This document shows, one piece after another, positions 5,988 to 14,889 of a DNA stretch of 36,611 nucleotides. The notes under the pieces were generated by a model. The model searched no databases. It saw only the letters and a list, made by a program, of their open reading frames with translations, and was not told where the DNA came from. Both the position numbers and the translations under genes were made by a program. Source of the stretch: a virus; the IMG/VR virus record IMGVR_UViG_3300032053_000237, positions 1 through 36,611 of that record; one strand, 5' to 3'. Numbering within the stretch: position 1 is the stretch's first letter; every line of letters starts with the position of its first letter.

Positions 5988-7829
5988 TCAAGCCGCTTTC
6001 GCCATGGCAAGCGGTATACGTACCGTGAACACGCTACCTTCTTGCGGGAGCGAGGCGCAAGTTATTGAACCCTTTAATTCTTGGACAATGTCATAGACTA
6101 TGGCCAATCCTATGCCGTTTCCCGATGTAGCGCGCGCGAGTAAGGTAGGGGGATCTAAAAGCATAGACACATGATCTTTTTCCATACCGCAACCGGTATC
6201 AATCATTTTGATGACGAAATAATCATTTTCCATCTCGGTATGAACAGTAATTTTTTTAGAAGCTCTATTCTTTAATGATTTATAGGCGTTAGAGAGCAGA
6301 TTAAGGATCATCTGTTGGAATTTATTAACATTACCGTGCGCTATGGTTTGAGGAGCATAGAACGCACGTAAAAGCGAAACGCCTTCTACGGCGTATCCAC
6401 GCTCAACAACAAGTAGCGCTTGCTCGATCGTGCCGCCGATGTTAAAATGTTCTGTTGTAGCGCATTCTGGCTGTAAAATTTTCTTAAATTTCCGCGTGGT
6501 GTCGATGATCGCATTGATCGCCTTATCCTGATTTTTAATAAATTTCTGCGTCTTAGAATTTTCAATCAGTAGGGGATCAGATCGCTCCAATAACTCTAAG
6601 TTGCCCTTGATGATCATCAAAGGATTATTTATCTCATGCATCAGCCCGCTCATCAAAGCGCCAACAGAAGCAACGCGGGACGCCTGAAGCAATTTTCCGT
6701 GCATTACGTCCTGCTGCGTTTGCGCTTTTTCCAATGATCCCAGCATGTTATTCATAGATTGAGCTAGATCCGATAGTTCATCTGCGCCGGACAAAAAGAC
6801 GCGAGCGGTTAAATCGTTGCTGGCGTGTATCCGGTTGATCAATGTGCGCAGACGAGAAACACGCAGCAGCACCATACGGTCGACGATCCATAGCGTCATC
6901 GCGATCATGATGAACATCGCTAGGAAAGAACCGCCTATCCCCAACACCGCCGCTTTACGCGCTTGCGCGTTGATAGGTCTCTGCGCGGTCATCATGATCG
7001 ATGCCGCAGGTTTACCATAGATATCTTTAAAAAGCGTAGTCACTATGATCTGATTTGGAAGGGGCGTTTCTACCATGATTGCGTGCTGCAACTCAGCGTC
7101 GCTCAGATCATCGATCGATTTTAAAGACAGAGTAAGCCGCGTAAGTTTCGATATCTTTCCGACCGTCTCCTTGCTCAACCACTGACCGGCGAGCATGTAA
7201 CCGCGCGGTGGCCCAGTGTAATCTGTGCGAAGGATAGGGCGGCTAACCAAGAGAAGAACGCCTTCCGGCAGAGAGATGATGCCTTGCGCTTGATCTTCTA
7301 AATGCGATTCTTTACCGTTCTTTGCCTGATCTTTTTTATGCGTAAAATGAGAGAAATACGGGTTTGCTAAAAGAAACTTCTTGGTGATAGATTTAGGGGG
7401 CGGCACTAATTTTCTCTTGATCGTGTCCGCGCCCTGAGCCCACACTATATTGCCCTTATCATCAACAAACGCCATCAGGTGAACGCCCATCACCAACATG
7501 GACTCGCCTAGATCATTTTTAAGGTAAGCCTGATTATGGTCTTGGATGAACTTATACGTAGCATCCCACCCAGAATAATCACCTAACTTAGCGGCTAGGA
7601 AATTAAATTCTTGCTCTATTTGACCTTGAACTTGCTGCGCTTGATGCGTCGCTTGATCTTGCTCTATCTTGTCTAGTTGTTGGTTGAAATACACGCCCAT
7701 AAACGTGTTGAAGCTGGCAAAACAAAGAAACTGCGCGATGACTACGATCAACAACGTCTTCTTGCGCAACGTCATGTGCTCAAACGGTCGACCGTCGATG
7801 ATATGGCGAACAAAGCGTGGTAACCTCAT
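5988..7829 (-). CDS. Membrane sensor histidine kinase (CHASE4-HAMP-HisKA-HATPase)
   Basis: 613 residues. TM1 about 24-48; extracytoplasmic sensor about 50-290, whose first part (FLAAKLGDYSGWDATYKFI, 77-95) matches the CHASE4 pattern; TM2 about 294-316; HAMP about 320-370; dimerisation helix with phospho-acceptor His398 (LMHEINNP); ATP-binding half with N-box N510/N514, G1 box D544-TGCG and G2 box GNGIGLA (570-576). Every catalytic motif is present, so autophosphorylation is expected. The start ATG (AAGGA upstream) overlaps the stop of the response regulator gene as ATGA, so the two are translationally coupled. A complete sensor kinase is rare in a phage. Signal and target are unknown. Confidence 0.92.
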   Translation of the reverse strand: MRLPRFVRHIIDGRPFEHMTLRKKTLLIVVIAQFLCFASFNTFMGVYFNQQLDKIEQDQATHQAQQVQGQIEQEFNFLAAKLGDYSGWDATYKFIQDHNQAYLKNDLGESMLVMGVHLMAFVDDKGNIVWAQGADTIKRKLVPPPKSITKKFLLANPYFSHFTHKKDQAKNGKESHLEDQAQGIISLPEGVLLLVSRPILRTDYTGPPRGYMLAGQWLSKETVGKISKLTRLTLSLKSIDDLSDAELQHAIMVETPLPNQIIVTTLFKDIYGKPAASIMMTAQRPINAQARKAAVLGIGGSFLAMFIMIAMTLWIVDRMVLLRVSRLRTLINRIHASNDLTARVFLSGADELSDLAQSMNNMLGSLEKAQTQQDVMHGKLLQASRVASVGALMSGLMHEINNPLMIIKGNLELLERSDPLLIENSKTQKFIKNQDKAINAIIDTTRKFKKILQPECATTEHFNIGGTIEQALLVVERGYAVEGVSLLRAFYAPQTIAHGNVNKFQQMILNLLSNAYKSLKNRASKKITVHTEMENDYFVIKMIDTGCGMEKDHVSMLLDPPTLLARATSGNGIGLAIVYDIVQELKGSITCASLPQEGSVFTVRIPLAMAKAA

Positions 7830-8221
7830 GGCGTTCCTTTCGCGAAAGTATCAAACAATCTCGCGAGATCTTGATAGCTAAACGGTTTCGCGAGATACCC
7901 GTCTACCAACCCGTCGATCGCCATCGTTCGCGCCCCCAAGAGATCGCCAAGTATGTTGCCAGACATAGCCACCATCCGCAGTCCGCAAAACCGGTTAGAC
8001 GCGGATATCGCCCTTATAAGCTCCTCGCCATCCCCGTTCGGCATGATTATGTCGGTCAACAGCACGTCGTACTTGTTCTTGACCAACTTATCGGCCGCCT
8101 CGTGTCCGCTGCAAGCGGTGTCCACGGTAAACCCCATGTCGCAAAGGTACTCGCCCAAGATGAACCGCAGCCCCTCTTCGTCGTCCACGATCAAGACGCG
8201 CCCTCGCTGGTCCTTGCTCAT
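7826..8221 (-). CDS. Single-domain response regulator (CheY-like receiver)
   Basis: 131 residues, a stand-alone receiver without output domain. Acidic pocket D14/E15 region (VDDEEG), phospho-acceptor D57 (LLTDIIMP), switch residue S87 (AMSGN) and conserved K112-P113 (LAKPF) are all present, so it should accept phosphate. The start ATG has GGAG eight bases upstream. Its last codons overlap the start of the sensor kinase (ATGA), making that kinase the obvious phosphodonor. Without a DNA-binding domain it must act through a partner protein, by passing the phosphate on, or as a phosphate sink for host signalling. Its codons are more C/G-ending than those of most neighbours. Confidence 0.92.
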   Translation of the reverse strand: MSKDQRGRVLIVDDEEGLRFILGEYLCDMGFTVDTACSGHEAADKLVKNKYDVLLTDIIMPNGDGEELIRAISASNRFCGLRMVAMSGNILGDLLGARTMAIDGLVDGYLAKPFSYQDLARLFDTFAKGTP

Positions 8222-8281: not shown

Positions 8282-9454
8282 CTATTTTGTGGCAGCTATG
8301 GAGCGGAGGTAGGCGAGGACCTCGATCGCGGTGCCCATGAAGCCGTTGGCGCCGTACTTGAGGAAGCGCTTTTGGATCTCACCGTTACGGTTCATTATTG
8401 TGTTTGTCCATTGGCCCCCACGCAAAGCCATGCGCTCTCGAAGGATTTCTTCAGTTTCGCAGATGGCAACAAGGATGAAGTCGAGTTGGTCAGAGTGGCG
8501 ACGTATGGTGGTAGATATTTTGAAGGTTGGGTCATAGAGCTTTGACTTAGTAGAAGGAGTAAGCAGAAGGTCAAGGTGATTTTGTTTAGGGTTGTTATCA
8601 TAAGATATATAGTCGAACTTATCTAGCAATTGGTTGGCTACCCAGGACTTACCAGAGGCAGGGGCACCGATGAGAAGATAGACGGTAGGTTTGGAGGAGG
8701 AAGGAGGATGTAACCATTCATTAAATTGAACCGCTGTATTATCTCCCCTTCCGTATTGAGAGTGGAATTTTCCATGACATGATTCACATAAGCATGCGCC
8801 ATTGTCAATAGAAAGTCTTTGATCAGGAAACAGATTGAACGCATTCTTATGATGGGCGTGTAATTTTCCGCCCCTTCTATAGCACCTTTGACATATAAAA
8901 TTAGCCTTAGAGAGTACATCATATGTCCAGGCTTTACCCTCCAGTGATTGACGAAGAAGAGTATTCTCTGGAGAGACAAAACCGTTGAAATCTTCTATAG
9001 AAATATTGCGTTTAGAGCACGACATCTTGATATGCATTTGCTGTATTTGATCATCAGTGTAATTGGAGAACTGTTCTAATTTTTTCTGTCTAAGCACTGA
9101 TTTAGTATGTTCAGTGTGGCATTGCCCCTTAAAAGGCGATGTACCACCATTTTTTGCCCAATGATTCTCTACCATTTTTTTATGAGTTTCTTCTGTAAGA
9201 TGGCGCTTTTGACTGCGTTTGGCAGCAAGGACATAGTCTTGATTGTGGAAGCATTTAGAGCATAACTTGTTCTTTAGGGATTGCTTGAGTTTGATGTTGC
9301 GCTCTATACCACATTGTGGACAGTTGTCGATTACGCGGAGTTGTCCTTTTTTATCAACTTGAGGGGCATTCGCAATCTCTACCTTAGTGCGACGTTTTCG
9401 TGAAACATCTATATCGTAGCCAAGTAACTCTAATGTACGCTGCCTGTTGAACAT
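8282..9454 (-). CDS. HNH endonuclease fused to a P-loop kinase-like domain
   Basis: 390 residues. An N-terminal zinc knuckle (C45/C48, C65/C68) is followed by two basic helical stretches at about 84-125 resembling NUMOD3-type DNA-binding repeats (LTEETHKKM; TEHTKSVLRQKK). The HNH nuclease spans about 185-232, with Cys pairs CQRC (188-191) and CESC (223-226), catalytic H201/H202 and a distal His. A separate NTPase domain (about 256-390) follows, with Walker A GAPASGKS (263-270) and a downstream Arg-rich segment, like phage polynucleotide/nucleoside kinases. The HNH half looks like a free-standing homing endonuclease that has joined a kinase gene. Its ribosome-binding site lies in a hairpin. 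Confidence 0.85.
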   Translation of the reverse strand: MFNRQRTLELLGYDIDVSRKRRTKVEIANAPQVDKKGQLRVIDNCPQCGIERNIKLKQSLKNKLCSKCFHNQDYVLAAKRSQKRHLTEETHKKMVENHWAKNGGTSPFKGQCHTEHTKSVLRQKKLEQFSNYTDDQIQQMHIKMSCSKRNISIEDFNGFVSPENTLLRQSLEGKAWTYDVLSKANFICQRCYRRGGKLHAHHKNAFNLFPDQRLSIDNGACLCESCHGKFHSQYGRGDNTAVQFNEWLHPPSSSKPTVYLLIGAPASGKSWVANQLLDKFDYISYDNNPKQNHLDLLLTPSTKSKLYDPTFKISTTIRRHSDQLDFILVAICETEEILRERMALRGGQWTNTIMNRNGEIQKRFLKYGANGFMGTAIEVLAYLRSIAATK

Positions 9455-9625: not shown

Positions 9626-11074
9626 TTACTTACCAACGTTCCTGAAGAAGCAATTGAACCGCGGAGTGTAGACGAACAGCGCACCGTACAGAACAACTGC
9701 AAACTCGAGAGCTGTGCTCACGATCGCGAAGTTGATCTTGCTAAGTGGCGCGAGCTGTTTAAATCTCATGTTCTCTGCGCTCATGTCCAACAGGAATGCC
9801 TCGGCCAGACCCGGCATCTTGCTGCCGATGTCGTTGCAGTCCATCGAACTACCAGTCACCTTGTAGTTACCGATGAACTTCTCTGAACCGGCCGCTCCGC
9901 CTGCTGCGCTGCGATACACCTTCGCGTACCGGCTACCACTTGGAATACCGCTAATGGTAAGCTTCACGCTGTTCTCACCGCCGGCCATGATGCGCGACGT
10001 GGAGGCGCAAGGTGAACCTTCGCCGAAATCGTTGACGAGGGTCACGCGGTACTGGTAGGTGCTGTTAGCAAGCGAGCCTGACACTGCGCCGTTAGCGGTC
10101 GCGAGACCAGGCGCTGCTGGCGCGTTAGCGTTGACTGCCACCGCGCGGACGCCGCTGCGGGGACGAAGGAACAGGTTTGGTTTCAGGTCGATCGCGCCGG
10201 CGGTCGTGGTAACCTTCGACACGTCGTAGCCGACGGTCTGGTTAGCGAGACCGGGTGCTGACCTGAACTGTGGGTAGAACTGACGGACGAACGCGCTGAG
10301 GGCGATCGGCTCGATGTGGAGCTCGTTCGGAGCGCCGAAGTTCTCGAGTGCGATCACGCAAAGACGCTCGATGTCGTCCTGGGCGATCACGAGACCCTGG
10401 AGGTCTTGACCGATCGAGGACAGATCACCGTATCCCTCGAAGTCGCCTGAACGCTGCTGGATGTCGCTGTCGCCCTTCATGAGCTGCTTCAGAAGGCCGT
10501 TCATCGCGAGCGAGTTTGAGGGGATATCGCTATCTGAACCGGACATTGAACCGTCTGAGCCGCTGCAGAAATGGGCATGACCCCAATAAAGCTCGCGCTC
10601 GACGTTCTTCAACAGGTGCATCGTTCCTTCCTTCGCCTGTTGAGCAACCACGTCACCAACTGTCGTGCGGACGAGCGTCATCTGATGGGACACCTTTCTG
10701 CGTGTTCCAAAGAAGACGATCTTTTGACCGTCACGAATGTAGGTGCTGTCTTCCTCTTGAGGAGCCCCGCCCTCGGCGAGATACGGTGAAGAATCACTAC
10801 CGTACCCGACCAAGCGGTTGTACTGCTCGAAGAGGTTATAAGCCTTGTCGACCGCGATAGCGGGCCAAAGCTTAAGGTTCTTCATATCAAAAGTAACTGA
10901 CTTCAGGGTCGACTCCAGCGACTCGGCCTGAATAACGCCACCGTACACGAGGTCGGTGGGCTTACCAGCCCCGCCGTAGCCGGCGGTGATGGCTTTATTC
11001 AAGGACTCGATGTCCTCAGGAGAAACGATACCCTGTTCGATACCGTTGAGGATCTGATTTACCATCTCGTTCAT
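9626..11074 (-). CDS. Major capsid protein (HK97-fold-like) with Ig-like insertion
   Basis: 482 residues. Identified by position (protease, scaffold, then this gene), length, the very strong ribosome-binding site (AAGGAG, 7 bases), the codon use of a highly expressed gene (many C-ending codons), and capsid-like regions: an N-terminal arm, a central region with paired elements, and a hydrophobic C-terminal strand region. Residues about 316-420 form a Gly/Ser/Ala-rich beta domain with the typical fibronectin/Ig strand pattern (STYQYRVTLVNDFGEG), probably a surface decoration of the capsomer. Residues 27-56 resemble a segment of the protease gene product, suggesting a processing or assembly signal. 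A few C-terminal Cys are present. Confidence 0.88.
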   Translation of the reverse strand: MNEMVNQILNGIEQGIVSPEDIESLNKAITAGYGGAGKPTDLVYGGVIQAESLESTLKSVTFDMKNLKLWPAIAVDKAYNLFEQYNRLVGYGSDSSPYLAEGGAPQEEDSTYIRDGQKIVFFGTRRKVSHQMTLVRTTVGDVVAQQAKEGTMHLLKNVERELYWGHAHFCSGSDGSMSGSDSDIPSNSLAMNGLLKQLMKGDSDIQQRSGDFEGYGDLSSIGQDLQGLVIAQDDIERLCVIALENFGAPNELHIEPIALSAFVRQFYPQFRSAPGLANQTVGYDVSKVTTTAGAIDLKPNLFLRPRSGVRAVAVNANAPAAPGLATANGAVSGSLANSTYQYRVTLVNDFGEGSPCASTSRIMAGGENSVKLTISGIPSGSRYAKVYRSAAGGAAGSEKFIGNYKVTGSSMDCNDIGSKMPGLAEAFLLDMSAENMRFKQLAPLSKINFAIVSTALEFAVVLYGALFVYTPRFNCFFRNVGK

Positions 11075-11088
11075 TGTCTATCTCCTTG

Positions 11089-12120
11089 TTATCTCAGATT
11101 ATATTTGTTAACGATAGCGCTGAAGTCCTGCCCTAACTCAATCGACGCGATGTCGGCCGAATCAACGCGGGTACCTGATTTCTTCAGCTCAAAGAGCTTA
11201 CTAGCAAGCTCTGCCTTTGAGAGGGATTCCGTCTCGCTCTTCTTAAGCGGAGCAACGCCGGCCGGGACGCCTTTCGGCGGCATCGGCTGGTCACCGATCT
11301 TCTTGATCATATCGAAAAGACTGCTGATCTTCTTCTCAAGACCACCAAGCTTCTCGTCTACATAGGATTTCGTGAGGGAATCGGTCTCTTCAGAGGATTT
11401 CTTCACTTCGTAACCCTCTGCAGGCTGCGACTTCGGAGACGGGGTCTTCTCTGACTTGCTGTCTCTCGGCGACGCGGAGCGGTTGATGCCAGAGTAGCTC
11501 TCTGACTTCTTAGAAGGCTTGCTATCCTTAGGAGCTGCGACCGAGCGGTTCACACCCTCGTCGGTGCTCTCGGACTTAGACTTCTCGGGCATCTTCTGAG
11601 ACGCGGCCTCTTCGCGGTTGATACCCTCGTACTTCTCCATGTCCTTCTTGTCCTCGTCCTTGTCCTCTTCCTCGTCTTCGTCCTCTTCTGCCTTCTTCAT
11701 GGGTAGCGCTGGTTTCTTTATTGACTTCTTTTTCTCAGCTTCCTTGATCACGCCTTCCCACTCTGCCTTCTTGGCCTCTTCACAGTCCTCGCCCTTCTTA
11801 GCCTCTTCCTCTTCCTCGTCCTCTTCGTCCTCTTCCTCGTCTTCCTCGGCCTTCTTAGCCTCTTCCTCTTTGTCCTCGTCCTTGTCTTCCTTCTCTTCGT
11901 CTTTCTTTTCGGCCTTCTTAGCCTCTTCCTCATCCTCTTCCTTCTGCATCGCGGGCTTCCCAGCCTCGAGCTCACCGCTCGGCTGCAGGGACGCGATCCC
12001 GTCACCAGGACCGCTTAGCTGAACTTCCGCGGCGGAGAAACGCGACTTCTTGAGATCTTCGATCTCAGCGATCGTCTCGTCGATGAGGCTTGTAAGACTT
12101 TTTACAAGCTGTTCATTCAT
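11089..12120 (-). CDS. Acidic low-complexity scaffold-like head assembly protein
   Basis: 343 residues from ATG 12120, preceded by AAAGGAG and six bases; the upstream in-frame ATG (12144) has no such site. Short helical start (1-30), then an extreme Glu/Asp/Lys tract (about 61-160) with EEAKKAE-type repeats, three GINR/GVNR motifs (166-169, 189-192, 211-214) in a Ser/Lys-rich section, and a helical C-terminal part (about 245-343, LSKAELASKLFELKK). Lying between the protease and the capsid gene, with extreme charge and little sequence complexity, it fits an internal scaffold that is removed on maturation. This is inferred from place and composition, not homology. Confidence 0.72.
   Translation of the reverse strand: MNEQLVKSLTSLIDETIAEIEDLKKSRFSAAEVQLSGPGDGIASLQPSGELEAGKPAMQKEEDEEEAKKAEKKDEEKEDKDEDKEEEAKKAEEDEEEDEEDEEEEEAKKGEDCEEAKKAEWEGVIKEAEKKKSIKKPALPMKKAEEDEDEEEDKDEDKKDMEKYEGINREEAASQKMPEKSKSESTDEGVNRSVAAPKDSKPSKKSESYSGINRSASPRDSKSEKTPSPKSQPAEGYEVKKSSEETDSLTKSYVDEKLGGLEKKISSLFDMIKKIGDQPMPPKGVPAGVAPLKKSETESLSKAELASKLFELKKSGTRVDSADIASIELGQDFSAIVNKYNLR
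11641..11940 (-). repeat. Low-complexity purine-rich triplet tract inside the scaffold gene
   Basis: GAG/GAA/GAC/AAG codons almost without interruption, coding the Glu/Asp/Lys block. The minus strand is nearly all purine. Such tracts expand and contract by slippage, so length differences between isolates are likely. Confidence 0.8.
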
Positions 12121-12149
12121 AGTTAACTCCTTTGGCGAATTCATTCAGC

Positions 12150-12658: not shown

Positions 12659-14257
12659 CTATTGGAGATTAGAAAGCAGCTTAAAAAGCGTTTCCATGGA
12701 GAAAGGTTGGTTGCAGCTTCTGCATTTTACGGCGTATTTATGGTGAACTTGGTCATGGCCGCATTTATCGCAGGTAACATAGCGGAAACCTTTAATCTTC
12801 TTTGGTTTATTATCTTCTAATGCTTCAGATTGCATCACGGCACCTTGTATGCGGTTGGTCGGGGCAGCTGCTCCGCCGTAACCCGCCATCAAAGCCTTGC
12901 GCAGCTTCGGATGTGTTTCTTTCAGCTTCTTAACATATGGATGATCCGAAAGTTTCTTGCCAGACTTTAACGCGTGTTGGGTACCAGCAACCCCCTCACG
13001 CCAGGAATGTGCTATCTTGTCTATATCACTCCCGTGTAGCTTATGTAGCTTATTGTACAGCTCTGAAGCCGCCAGATAGGCCAGCTGCGGGTCGGTATTT
13101 AGGGCCTTGGTGACGTTATCGTGATTAGCATCAATATCCTTAACGAACGGCGCCAGCTGCGCGTATTTCTGCTGTAACGCATGGGATTTATTAAATGTAT
13201 CGGCGAACGTCTTCGGCATCATGCCCCAAGGACCGCCGGCGCGCATCCCTTTGTTTAACCCATGCTTCACGACATCGTGGTCTAGCATCTTGCCGCCGGT
13301 GGACTCTATCTGGGCGATCGACCATAAAGTCGGCGCCTTATCCTGCAATTTTTCTACGAAAGCTGCTGGGGTCATCGCGGGCTTCTTATGTTCAGCAATA
13401 CCAGAAAGAGAAGGTGGCATCAACGTCATCGCGCCGCTCATCAGCGCGCCTGCGATAGCGCCTTTCATATTCTTTTCCATCAAATCCTCCGTAACGATGG
13501 CCTCATGGATCTTCTGCACGTTGCCTACTATCTTTTGTTCTAGGGCGGCTTGGGTAAGTTCCATGGGAGAAGGGATAGAGATCGGCAAGGATTTAGCGCC
13601 GCGTATCTGGGCTAGCATATCGGAGATTTGATTTAAATTTTGATGTACCTTATAGGCAGAACCAATGCGCTCTATCTGCCTGAAAGAGGGCACATTGTCT
13701 TGCGCTAGGTGCATAACTGACCTAATTAGGGCCATATCCGCAGCTTCGTCGTGTTGGCATTTCTCGAGGTTGATAGGCTCGACCAAAGTAGCTGAATTCG
13801 CGGGAGAAAATGTCAGGGCCACGCCGCGAACGACCGTGTGGGCAAGGAAGCGTGGATCTTTAATGCCGCGCGAAACAATACCGCCTTCTACTGATGCCTT
13901 TATCTTTAGAGGGGAATCTGTTTTGTGGATGTTGCGAAGGATCGCGGCGGCAGCCTTAGCGTTGGGATGATCGTCATCGCTGTACAAAATGCCCTTAGCA
14001 TAGATGTACGGGGCTTTAATTTGGTTCCAATAATAGCGTTGGCGATCATCTTCGCAGTCTTCTTCTTTAAAGATTTTCTTGCCGTAGGTGATGCGGCCAA
14101 GGGTGTTGAAGAAACCTCGGCTGTGGTTATCACTCCAAATACCGGTGCCTGCCTCTAAAGCTGAGATATCAGCCCCTTCAACAGATAGTATCTCGCCTTG
14201 GCTATCGCGAATCTCAGAGCCGGCGACGCAATCGATTTCAAGTGGTCTATTAGACAT
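12659..14257 (-). CDS. Prohead maturation protease fused to a lytic transglycosylase-like domain and zinc ribbon
   Basis: 532 residues. The protease domain (1-165) has probable catalytic His45 (WSDNHSRG) and Ser122 (KASVEGG), as in phage prohead serine proteases. A helical linker (165-300) follows. Residues about 308-430 resemble lysozyme-like transglycosylases: catalytic Glu318 in IAQIESTGG, GPWGMMPKT, then DPQLAYLAASELY and SWREG. Next comes AGYGG (458-462) in a segment resembling the capsid N-terminus, and a C-terminal zinc ribbon (C496/C499, C512/C515). The domain union is unusual; a protease and a murein-degrading part may be packaged together. Start ATG with AGGTG 11 bases upstream. There is no typical terminator in the 122-base gap that follows. 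Confidence 0.82.
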   Translation of the reverse strand: MSNRPLEIDCVAGSEIRDSQGEILSVEGADISALEAGTGIWSDNHSRGFFNTLGRITYGKKIFKEEDCEDDRQRYYWNQIKAPYIYAKGILYSDDDHPNAKAAAAILRNIHKTDSPLKIKASVEGGIVSRGIKDPRFLAHTVVRGVALTFSPANSATLVEPINLEKCQHDEAADMALIRSVMHLAQDNVPSFRQIERIGSAYKVHQNLNQISDMLAQIRGAKSLPISIPSPMELTQAALEQKIVGNVQKIHEAIVTEDLMEKNMKGAIAGALMSGAMTLMPPSLSGIAEHKKPAMTPAAFVEKLQDKAPTLWSIAQIESTGGKMLDHDVVKHGLNKGMRAGGPWGMMPKTFADTFNKSHALQQKYAQLAPFVKDIDANHDNVTKALNTDPQLAYLAASELYNKLHKLHGSDIDKIAHSWREGVAGTQHALKSGKKLSDHPYVKKLKETHPKLRKALMAGYGGAAAPTNRIQGAVMQSEALEDNKPKKIKGFRYVTCDKCGHDQVHHKYAVKCRSCNQPFSMETLFKLLSNLQ

Positions 14258-14325: not shown

Positions 14326-14856
14326 TTACAAGATATGGCCTTTATTCTCAATATAAAGCGCGGCAAATCGCAATAAAATCGGATCATCGTGCAGTTTACC
14401 AATGCCCGTATTACAATGATTACATAACAATCCTCTTACTTGTCCGGTTATATGATCGTGATCCACCACAAATTGATCTTGTGGGCCACCGGGAATCAAG
14501 GTTTTACACAGTTTGCATGCGAAACCTTGTTGTTGAAGCAATTGATTATAGACGCTTAATGATATATTGTATTTTTTTAATAACGCATCATCTTTAGCAC
14601 ATGATCGACACCATCCGTTAAAGCCATCTGTACTTGATTTATTATATATAAAATTATTCTTCGCTTTTTCTTTTTTACAGCGACAACAAACCTTATTACC
14701 TTCTAAATTAGGATTAAACTCACGTAATTCTCTCTGTTTTCGATATTCCCGTATACATTGCTTACATTTCCCCGTTAAATGATCGCGATTATCGGCATGA
14801 TAATTAAACTCACTATATACCTTTTCAACTTGACACTGTTTACAAATCTTTTTCAT
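14326..14856 (-). CDS. Recombination endonuclease VII-type HNH nuclease
   Basis: 176 residues from ATG 14856, six bases after GAGG; an upstream in-frame ATG (14868) lacks a site. Two N-terminal zinc-finger-like repeats (C5/C8-C31/C34 and C57/C60-C83/C86) precede the nuclease domain, where C114/C117 and C145/C148 hold a zinc and the active region DHDHITG (132-138) with following Asn matches T4 endonuclease VII-related HNH enzymes. It may resolve branched DNA, but free-standing copies of this kind are often homing nucleases. It interrupts the packaging/head gene order between 14935 and 14257. A hairpin covers its ribosome-binding site. Confidence 0.88.
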   Translation of the reverse strand: MKKICKQCQVEKVYSEFNYHADNRDHLTGKCKQCIREYRKQRELREFNPNLEGNKVCCRCKKEKAKNNFIYNKSSTDGFNGWCRSCAKDDALLKKYNISLSVYNQLLQQQGFACKLCKTLIPGGPQDQFVVDHDHITGQVRGLLCNHCNTGIGKLHDDPILLRFAALYIENKGHIL

Positions 14857-14889
14857 AAATATCCTCATTTAGAATGAATGGATATTTAT
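14855..14889 (-). promoter_or_regulatory. Hairpin sequestering the ribosome-binding site of the endonuclease VII-type gene
   Basis: A 10-bp stem, ATAAATATCC (14889-14880) with GGATATTTAT (14864-14855), encloses a nested 5-bp stem (TCATT/AATGA). The GAGG site and part of the ATG lie in the stem. The 5' arm includes TATAAATA (14890-14883), identical to the T4 late promoter consensus. Transcripts starting there would lack the outer 5' arm. Confidence 0.65.

Follow-up and report, generated by a model that had tools for sequence, protein, structure and literature searches.

Why does a phage head maturation protease carry, close to its C-terminus, a segment that is also present near the N-terminus of the major capsid protein? 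The question arises from the 36.6-kb virus record IMGVR_UViG_3300032053_000237 of IMG/VR, which was analysed over its whole length (the window). We found that residues 454-483 of the protease (12809-12898, minus strand; KALMAGYGGAAAPTNRIQGAVMQSEALEDN) and residues 27-56 of the capsid protein (10907-10996, minus strand; KAITAGYGGAGKPTDLVYGGVIQAESLEST) align without a gap and share 16 of 30 residues, exactly at the positions given by an earlier, sequence-only reading of this DNA. The corresponding DNA is identical at only 52 of 90 positions. The local BLOSUM62 score of the segment pair was 91, a value reached by 0 of 2000 shuffles (mean 38, sd 5, max 63; fitted p about 1e-6). Across 34 loci, the segment scored 53-136 against the protease and the remaining 44-residue capsid windows scored 41 or less. 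Relatives place the edges of the module at a Lys and at about +33 (K27-F60 in the capsid protein, 10895-10996, minus strand), which makes the segment slightly longer than the 30 residues first proposed. A third copy was sought across the 36.6-kb record, as the sequence-only reading had advised for other virion proteins of the genome, and only the capsid protein and the protease carried the segment. The idea that it is common to all cleaved head proteins was rejected, as the window and three long relatives have it in these two proteins only; scaffolds carry just short K-S sites without the segment.

The protease is a multi-domain protein of 532 aa (12659-14257, minus strand; phrog_1028, E 4.5e-9). 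Its catalytic domain (residues about 1-165; 13763-14257, minus strand) contains His45 and Ser122 (ASVEG), which are invariant in 38 protease sequences and whose catalytic role is assumed from the family; K454, G459 and P466 of the segment are invariant in 38 proteases as well. In the protease model a putative assemblin-like N-domain is followed by helices, a lytic-transglycosylase-like domain (residues 296-449; 12911-13372, minus strand; phrog_3108, with Foldseek matches to Slt70 and the phi6 lysin), the segment and, after it, a zinc-ribbon-like C-terminal domain with a CxxC...CxxC pattern (residues 490-529; 12671-12790, minus strand). Herpesvirus assemblin proteases ranked first when this model was searched with Foldseek, though weakly (E 8.5e-3, prob 0.77-0.84). 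The capsid protein (9626-11074, minus strand; phrog_752, E 1.2e-55) is of the SPO1/A511 type and has the HK97 fold. It matched SPO1 gp6.1 (9vel) by sequence (E 7e-58) and by Foldseek (E 4e-39), and VIA-align superposed 384 residues of the capsid model on 9vel (Z 31.2, rmsd 3.6). AlphaFold gave pLDDT values below 50 to capsid residues 28-63, ahead of the HK97 fold, and to protease residues 454-489, which are flanked by two confident domains. A stretch that is conserved yet unfolded in both models would suit a segment that becomes ordered on binding.

An acidic scaffold protein is encoded directly upstream of the capsid gene (11089-12144, minus strand); a family search with it gave no match, and it was assigned from this position and its K-S sites. 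It has long, acidic EEED/KK-rich repeats and three G[IV]NR copies (EGINREEAAS, EGVNRSVAAP, SGINRSASPR), and the long antisense plus-strand ORFs at 11089-12144 stem from these repeats. The head module is flanked by HNH and endonuclease VII-type genes (8282-9454 and 14326-14868, both minus strand), which are likely mobile endonucleases. A two-component pair lies a short way downstream of the capsid gene, made up of a full sensor histidine kinase with CHASE4, HAMP, HisKA and HATPase domains (5988-7829, minus strand) and a separate response-regulator receiver protein (7826-8221, minus strand).

IMG/VR relatives of the capsid protein were searched with a profile of the capsid segment. The profile found one further ORF per locus, usually with the segment 40-60 residues from the C-terminus, and such a second ORF was present in 182 of 196 partly redundant loci with an anchored related capsid gene, distant phages included. 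About half of the 14 exceptions were short contigs missing the upstream region; the other half were the L133 group, L187 and Bacteroides DAC phages. All of the diverse carriers that were checked were phrog_1028 head maturation proteases, and the segment was present in ORFs from 284 to 1007 aa, whatever the strand or insert. Carriers include Staphylococcus phage K, Listeria A511-type and Bacillus SPO1-type phages and an Oxalobacter prophage. A search of the whole PDB with the protease from a relative of phage K matched only the phi812 capsid (E 1e-6), beginning at mature residue 1. An artefact of tandem duplication of neighbouring genes was rejected, as the segment is kept where the protease lies on the opposite strand (L005, L013, L014, L015, L034) and in LfeInf despite reversed gene order.

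Two further arrangements were observed among the relatives. Protease and scaffold are fused into one protein in three cases (L203:6426-7964, L204:6470-7963 and L133:6285-7931), from phages of Bacilli and Treponema bins and an IMG/VR group, with the arm or a remnant of it at or near the junction. In a 176.5-kb relative, a 74-aa ORF (L215:871-1095, minus strand; G004:97302-97370) contains the capsid N-arm region a second time, in partial form (PGPLLVESLESTLKAVTFDTKHLKLWPVLP), and is either a duplicate that has decayed or a small protein that mimics the capsid.

We then asked how the two copies vary together. In 23 phages the mean segment score was 92 for a protease paired with its own capsid protein and 48 for other pairs. 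This excess was reached by 0 of 200,000 permutations and held with 14 lineage groups, in 12 of which the own capsid was the best match (the permutation tests treat lineages as exchangeable). Each protease segment is also linked to its own capsid by shared indels, and lineage-specific versions recur in both proteins of Brochothrix ADU4 (KSMTTGYEHGGTDQ and KSMTTGYNHGGTDQ), Lysinibacillus LysYB2 (KALEAGYATTPETQ and KALSAGYATSPETQ) and a Desulfobacterales phage lineage (KALEAGHQNPATGSGGALR and KALEAGHTNPVAGTGGGSALR). An old duplication alone would be expected to leave own and foreign pairs equally similar. Of 437 positions with the same residue in both copies, 191 used the same codon, against 176 expected from codon usage (z 1.5). 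Since codons are alike only at chance level, the likeness is kept by selection on the proteins and not by copying of DNA, and gene conversion or recent duplication was rejected on this test. Protease-capsid fusions do occur in other phages (phrog_617; a Rhizobium phage), and would fit a segment that is the functionless relic of an ancestral fusion or duplication, or one whose copies have been homogenised by gene conversion. Both the co-divergence and the codons speak against such a relic, and the protease segment is conserved across very divergent phages (column identity 0.74, against 0.38 just before it). We consider it very unlikely. By sequence comparison, one Lys and the about 33 residues that follow it make up a co-evolving module in two proteins.

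The left edge of the module is sharp. In alignments anchored on the Lys, similarity was at background upstream, jumped at the Lys (18/18) and returned to background after +33. The mature phi812 capsid chain (9row, 439 aa) starts at S25, right after K24 of the 463-aa precursor. For SPO1 gp6.1, at most 445 residues of the deposited 468-aa chain are modelled, which equals the length of 24-468 and is consistent with a similar start without being proof of one. Lys27 of the capsid protein is invariant among relatives, and P1 was Lys in 91 of 93 distinct protease sequences, with hydrophobic P3 and P2'; the anchoring pattern demands the capsid Lys, so that the capsid count (66/66) is circular and the protease count is not. 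In a few of the 23 phages (Iacchus, LfeInf and Lbab1) the protease Lys does not stand directly before the arm. An N-terminal sequencing study of phage EF24C concerns the tail fibre and not the head. A phage K peptide beginning SFQTGYG was detected by MALDI, placing this stretch in virions, though the peptide is tryptic and so is no proof of a cut (PMC5258805).

The same site recurs in the scaffolds. Across 24 loci, scaffolds contained 217 K-S pairs against 81.5 expected (2.66-fold; shuffle maximum 104), with K-A at expectation and K[SA] at 1.05-fold in other ORFs. Hydrophobic residues ([LIVMF]) occupied P3 in 74% of the scaffold K-S sites, compared with 20% at other Lys, and P2' was hydrophobic in 48% compared with 16%. 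The window scaffold has LVK/SL, LTK/SY and other such sites, and both LNK/AI of the capsid protein and LRK/AL of the protease fit the [LIV]-x-K/S-hydrophobic context. From these statistics, a K-S/A motif spans the head proteins. The predicted cuts are Lys454/Ala455 in the protease (codons 12896-12898 and 12893-12895) and Lys27/Ala28 in the capsid protein, which would remove a propeptide of residues 1-27 (10994-11074, minus strand).

The sequence-only reading had taken the shared segment for a common cleavage or docking signal, and had placed the cut after a Glu within it, in the manner of T4 gp21. Conservation, co-divergence and position all lend the general idea strong support. The Glu cut is not supported. 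Glu followed by Ala or Ser is indeed found in both window copies (SEAL and AESL), but relatives have not kept it (KEEI and REIL in phage K), and the mature phi812 capsid, which starts after the left-edge Lys, retains that Glu. Scaffolds are enriched in K-S as described above and slightly depleted in E[SA] (160 against 188 expected, 0.85-fold). Glu-specific cleavage was rejected on these grounds and is the least probable of the readings considered.

What, then, might the 33 residues behind the cut do? The reading that we favour, and that we regard as standing about an even chance of being correct, is that the segment is a copy of the mature-capsid N-arm placed behind a maturation site, through which the protease would dock within the prohead and which self-cleavage would release. 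The protease arm would take a site of the kind used by the capsid N-arm, so that the low-copy protease would be carried into the shell or core like a capsid subunit. In keeping with this, virions of phages related to these have been shown to contain the protease (PMC12282133, PMC3601020). The protease would then cut [hydrophobic]-x-Lys/Ala or Ser-[hydrophobic] at many scaffold sites, for which the sequence evidence is strong, and presumably at Lys27/Ala28 in the capsid protein and Lys454/Ala455 in itself. The capsid protein would shed its 27-residue propeptide, leaving the N-arm free to order in the mature shell, and the protease would lose the arm together with the zinc-ribbon tail, untethering the catalytic part with its transglycosylase-like cargo. 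The shared partner of the arm may be the capsid, the scaffold or the protease itself.

The main rival is a prime-side exosite, in which the protease would recognise both the capsid protein and itself through the 33 residues that follow the scissile bond, with no docking to the shell; acting in cis, the segment would be a pseudo-substrate or a timing latch. In both proteins the module does begin precisely where the scissile bond is predicted and is confined to the prime side, and a single shared binding groove would yield co-divergence. Scaffold K-S sites share the P3-P2' context without the segment, however, which argues that the segment is not needed for cutting, and 33 residues is long for subsites. 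The protease of Bacteroides phage DAC16 has kept LRK/SF but is missing the arm, suggesting that cut and arm are separable. DAC16 has also kept the scaffold K-S sites and the capsid K/A, and phages of this type do without the arm. We judge an exosite possible but rather unlikely.

Docking to the scaffold core is also possible, although we think it unlikely and a shade less probable than the exosite. Here the same scaffold site would hold the capsid N-terminus and the protease, and the cut would free both. In HK97 the scaffold sits in the region near the N-arm (PMC10275583). The protease and scaffold genes adjoin, and the three fusions described above join protease, segment and scaffold in one protein. 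Loss of the scaffold leaves the segment in place in the mature shell, however, and the strong conservation of the segment in the capsid protein would need another reason.

We compared the N-arm copy with known head proteases. Phages SPO1, K and A511 (Herelleviridae) have the same capsid family and the segment in their proteases, but theirs are short proteins of about 250-290 aa that have a helical tail, whereas an insert and a zinc ribbon are present in the window family. In T4, the protease gp21 is packaged in the head core and cuts after Glu; internal proteins are tagged next to the cut, and the capsid targeting tags lie before it. The arm described here instead lies after the predicted cut, in an internal or C-terminal position, and is not a targeting sequence in that sense. 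T4 gp21 was not convincingly similar to the N-terminus of mature gp23 (score 37, reached by 9/500 shuffles), and no similarity to gp23 or gp24 was seen in T4 Inh, a protease inhibitor for which a likeness to capsid proteins seemed possible.

Herpesvirus UL26 (HSV-1 VP24/VP21; R and M sites) is comparable to the window protease, with its putative assemblin-like domain and predicted self-cleavage site: in UL26 such a site lies between the catalytic domain and an assembly-element tail (PMC12474303). It differs in that a capsid N-arm copy, not scaffold, follows the site here, and in that the window tail ends in a zinc ribbon. Protease and scaffold are separate genes in the window and not a single polypeptide of the UL26 type. 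Only in the relatives L203, L204 and L133 is the tail scaffold, and there the segment lies at the point of fusion or close to it, which makes a close parallel to the herpesvirus R site (PMC12474303). HK97 shares the capsid fold, and the N-terminal extension of its gp5 is cut at K103/S104 (PMC10275583) in a context, FNK/SL, that resembles LNK/AI here. In Prohead I of HK97 the N-arm cannot be seen where it adjoins the cut; once cleavage has occurred, some of this arm takes over the position of the scaffold (PMC10275583). The gp4 tail has K-S sites, but the N-arm of mature gp5 has no copy in gp4 (score 29, reached by 47/500 shuffles). The phiKZ-type protease gp245 of SPN3US makes a C-terminal self-cut of the kind predicted here, by which it is experimentally known to lose a 64-residue propeptide, but it cuts at A-x-E, and no capsid-arm copy was seen in the part of the source consulted (PMC10052503).

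The protease gene also has a variable cargo slot, placed between the catalytic domain and the arm or after the arm (window 12911-13372, minus strand; also L005, L019, L038, L061, L079 and L086). The transglycosylase-like domain, which occupies it between catalytic domain and segment in the window, is absent or replaced in relatives; the insert may be such a domain, HEAT or LRV repeats, a GNAT domain, or none. Myxococcus phage Mx1 has a very long protease of 1239 aa with a C-terminal kinase-like motif, DRNDGN...HIDNA, recognised by eye. The domains in the slot may be enzymes that are packaged together with the protease for delivery to the host. More tentatively, and as an unlikely extension, this may be a general strategy in which the protease enters the shell wearing a capsid N-arm, the arm-plus-tail peptide stays in mature heads at capsid-arm sites, and the cargo is released inside the head for the host.

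No description of the shared segment was found in the open-access literature; the older SPO1, A511 and K papers lay largely outside this search, and an earlier description is possible. The module bears on a general problem for most tailed phages, namely how a low-copy protease enters the prohead and is switched on in time. For phage K, SPO1, the Oxalobacter prophage and the environmental phages, the co-evolving arm copy offers a concrete and testable answer. It comes with a cleavage motif, [LIV]-x-Lys/Ser or Ala-hydrophobic, that is predicted to hold group-wide, and arm and motif could help in identifying, from genome sequences, proteases and the ends of mature capsid proteins. The findings also suggest that, in the laboratory, the arm could possibly serve as a tag to bring other proteins into heads of this kind.
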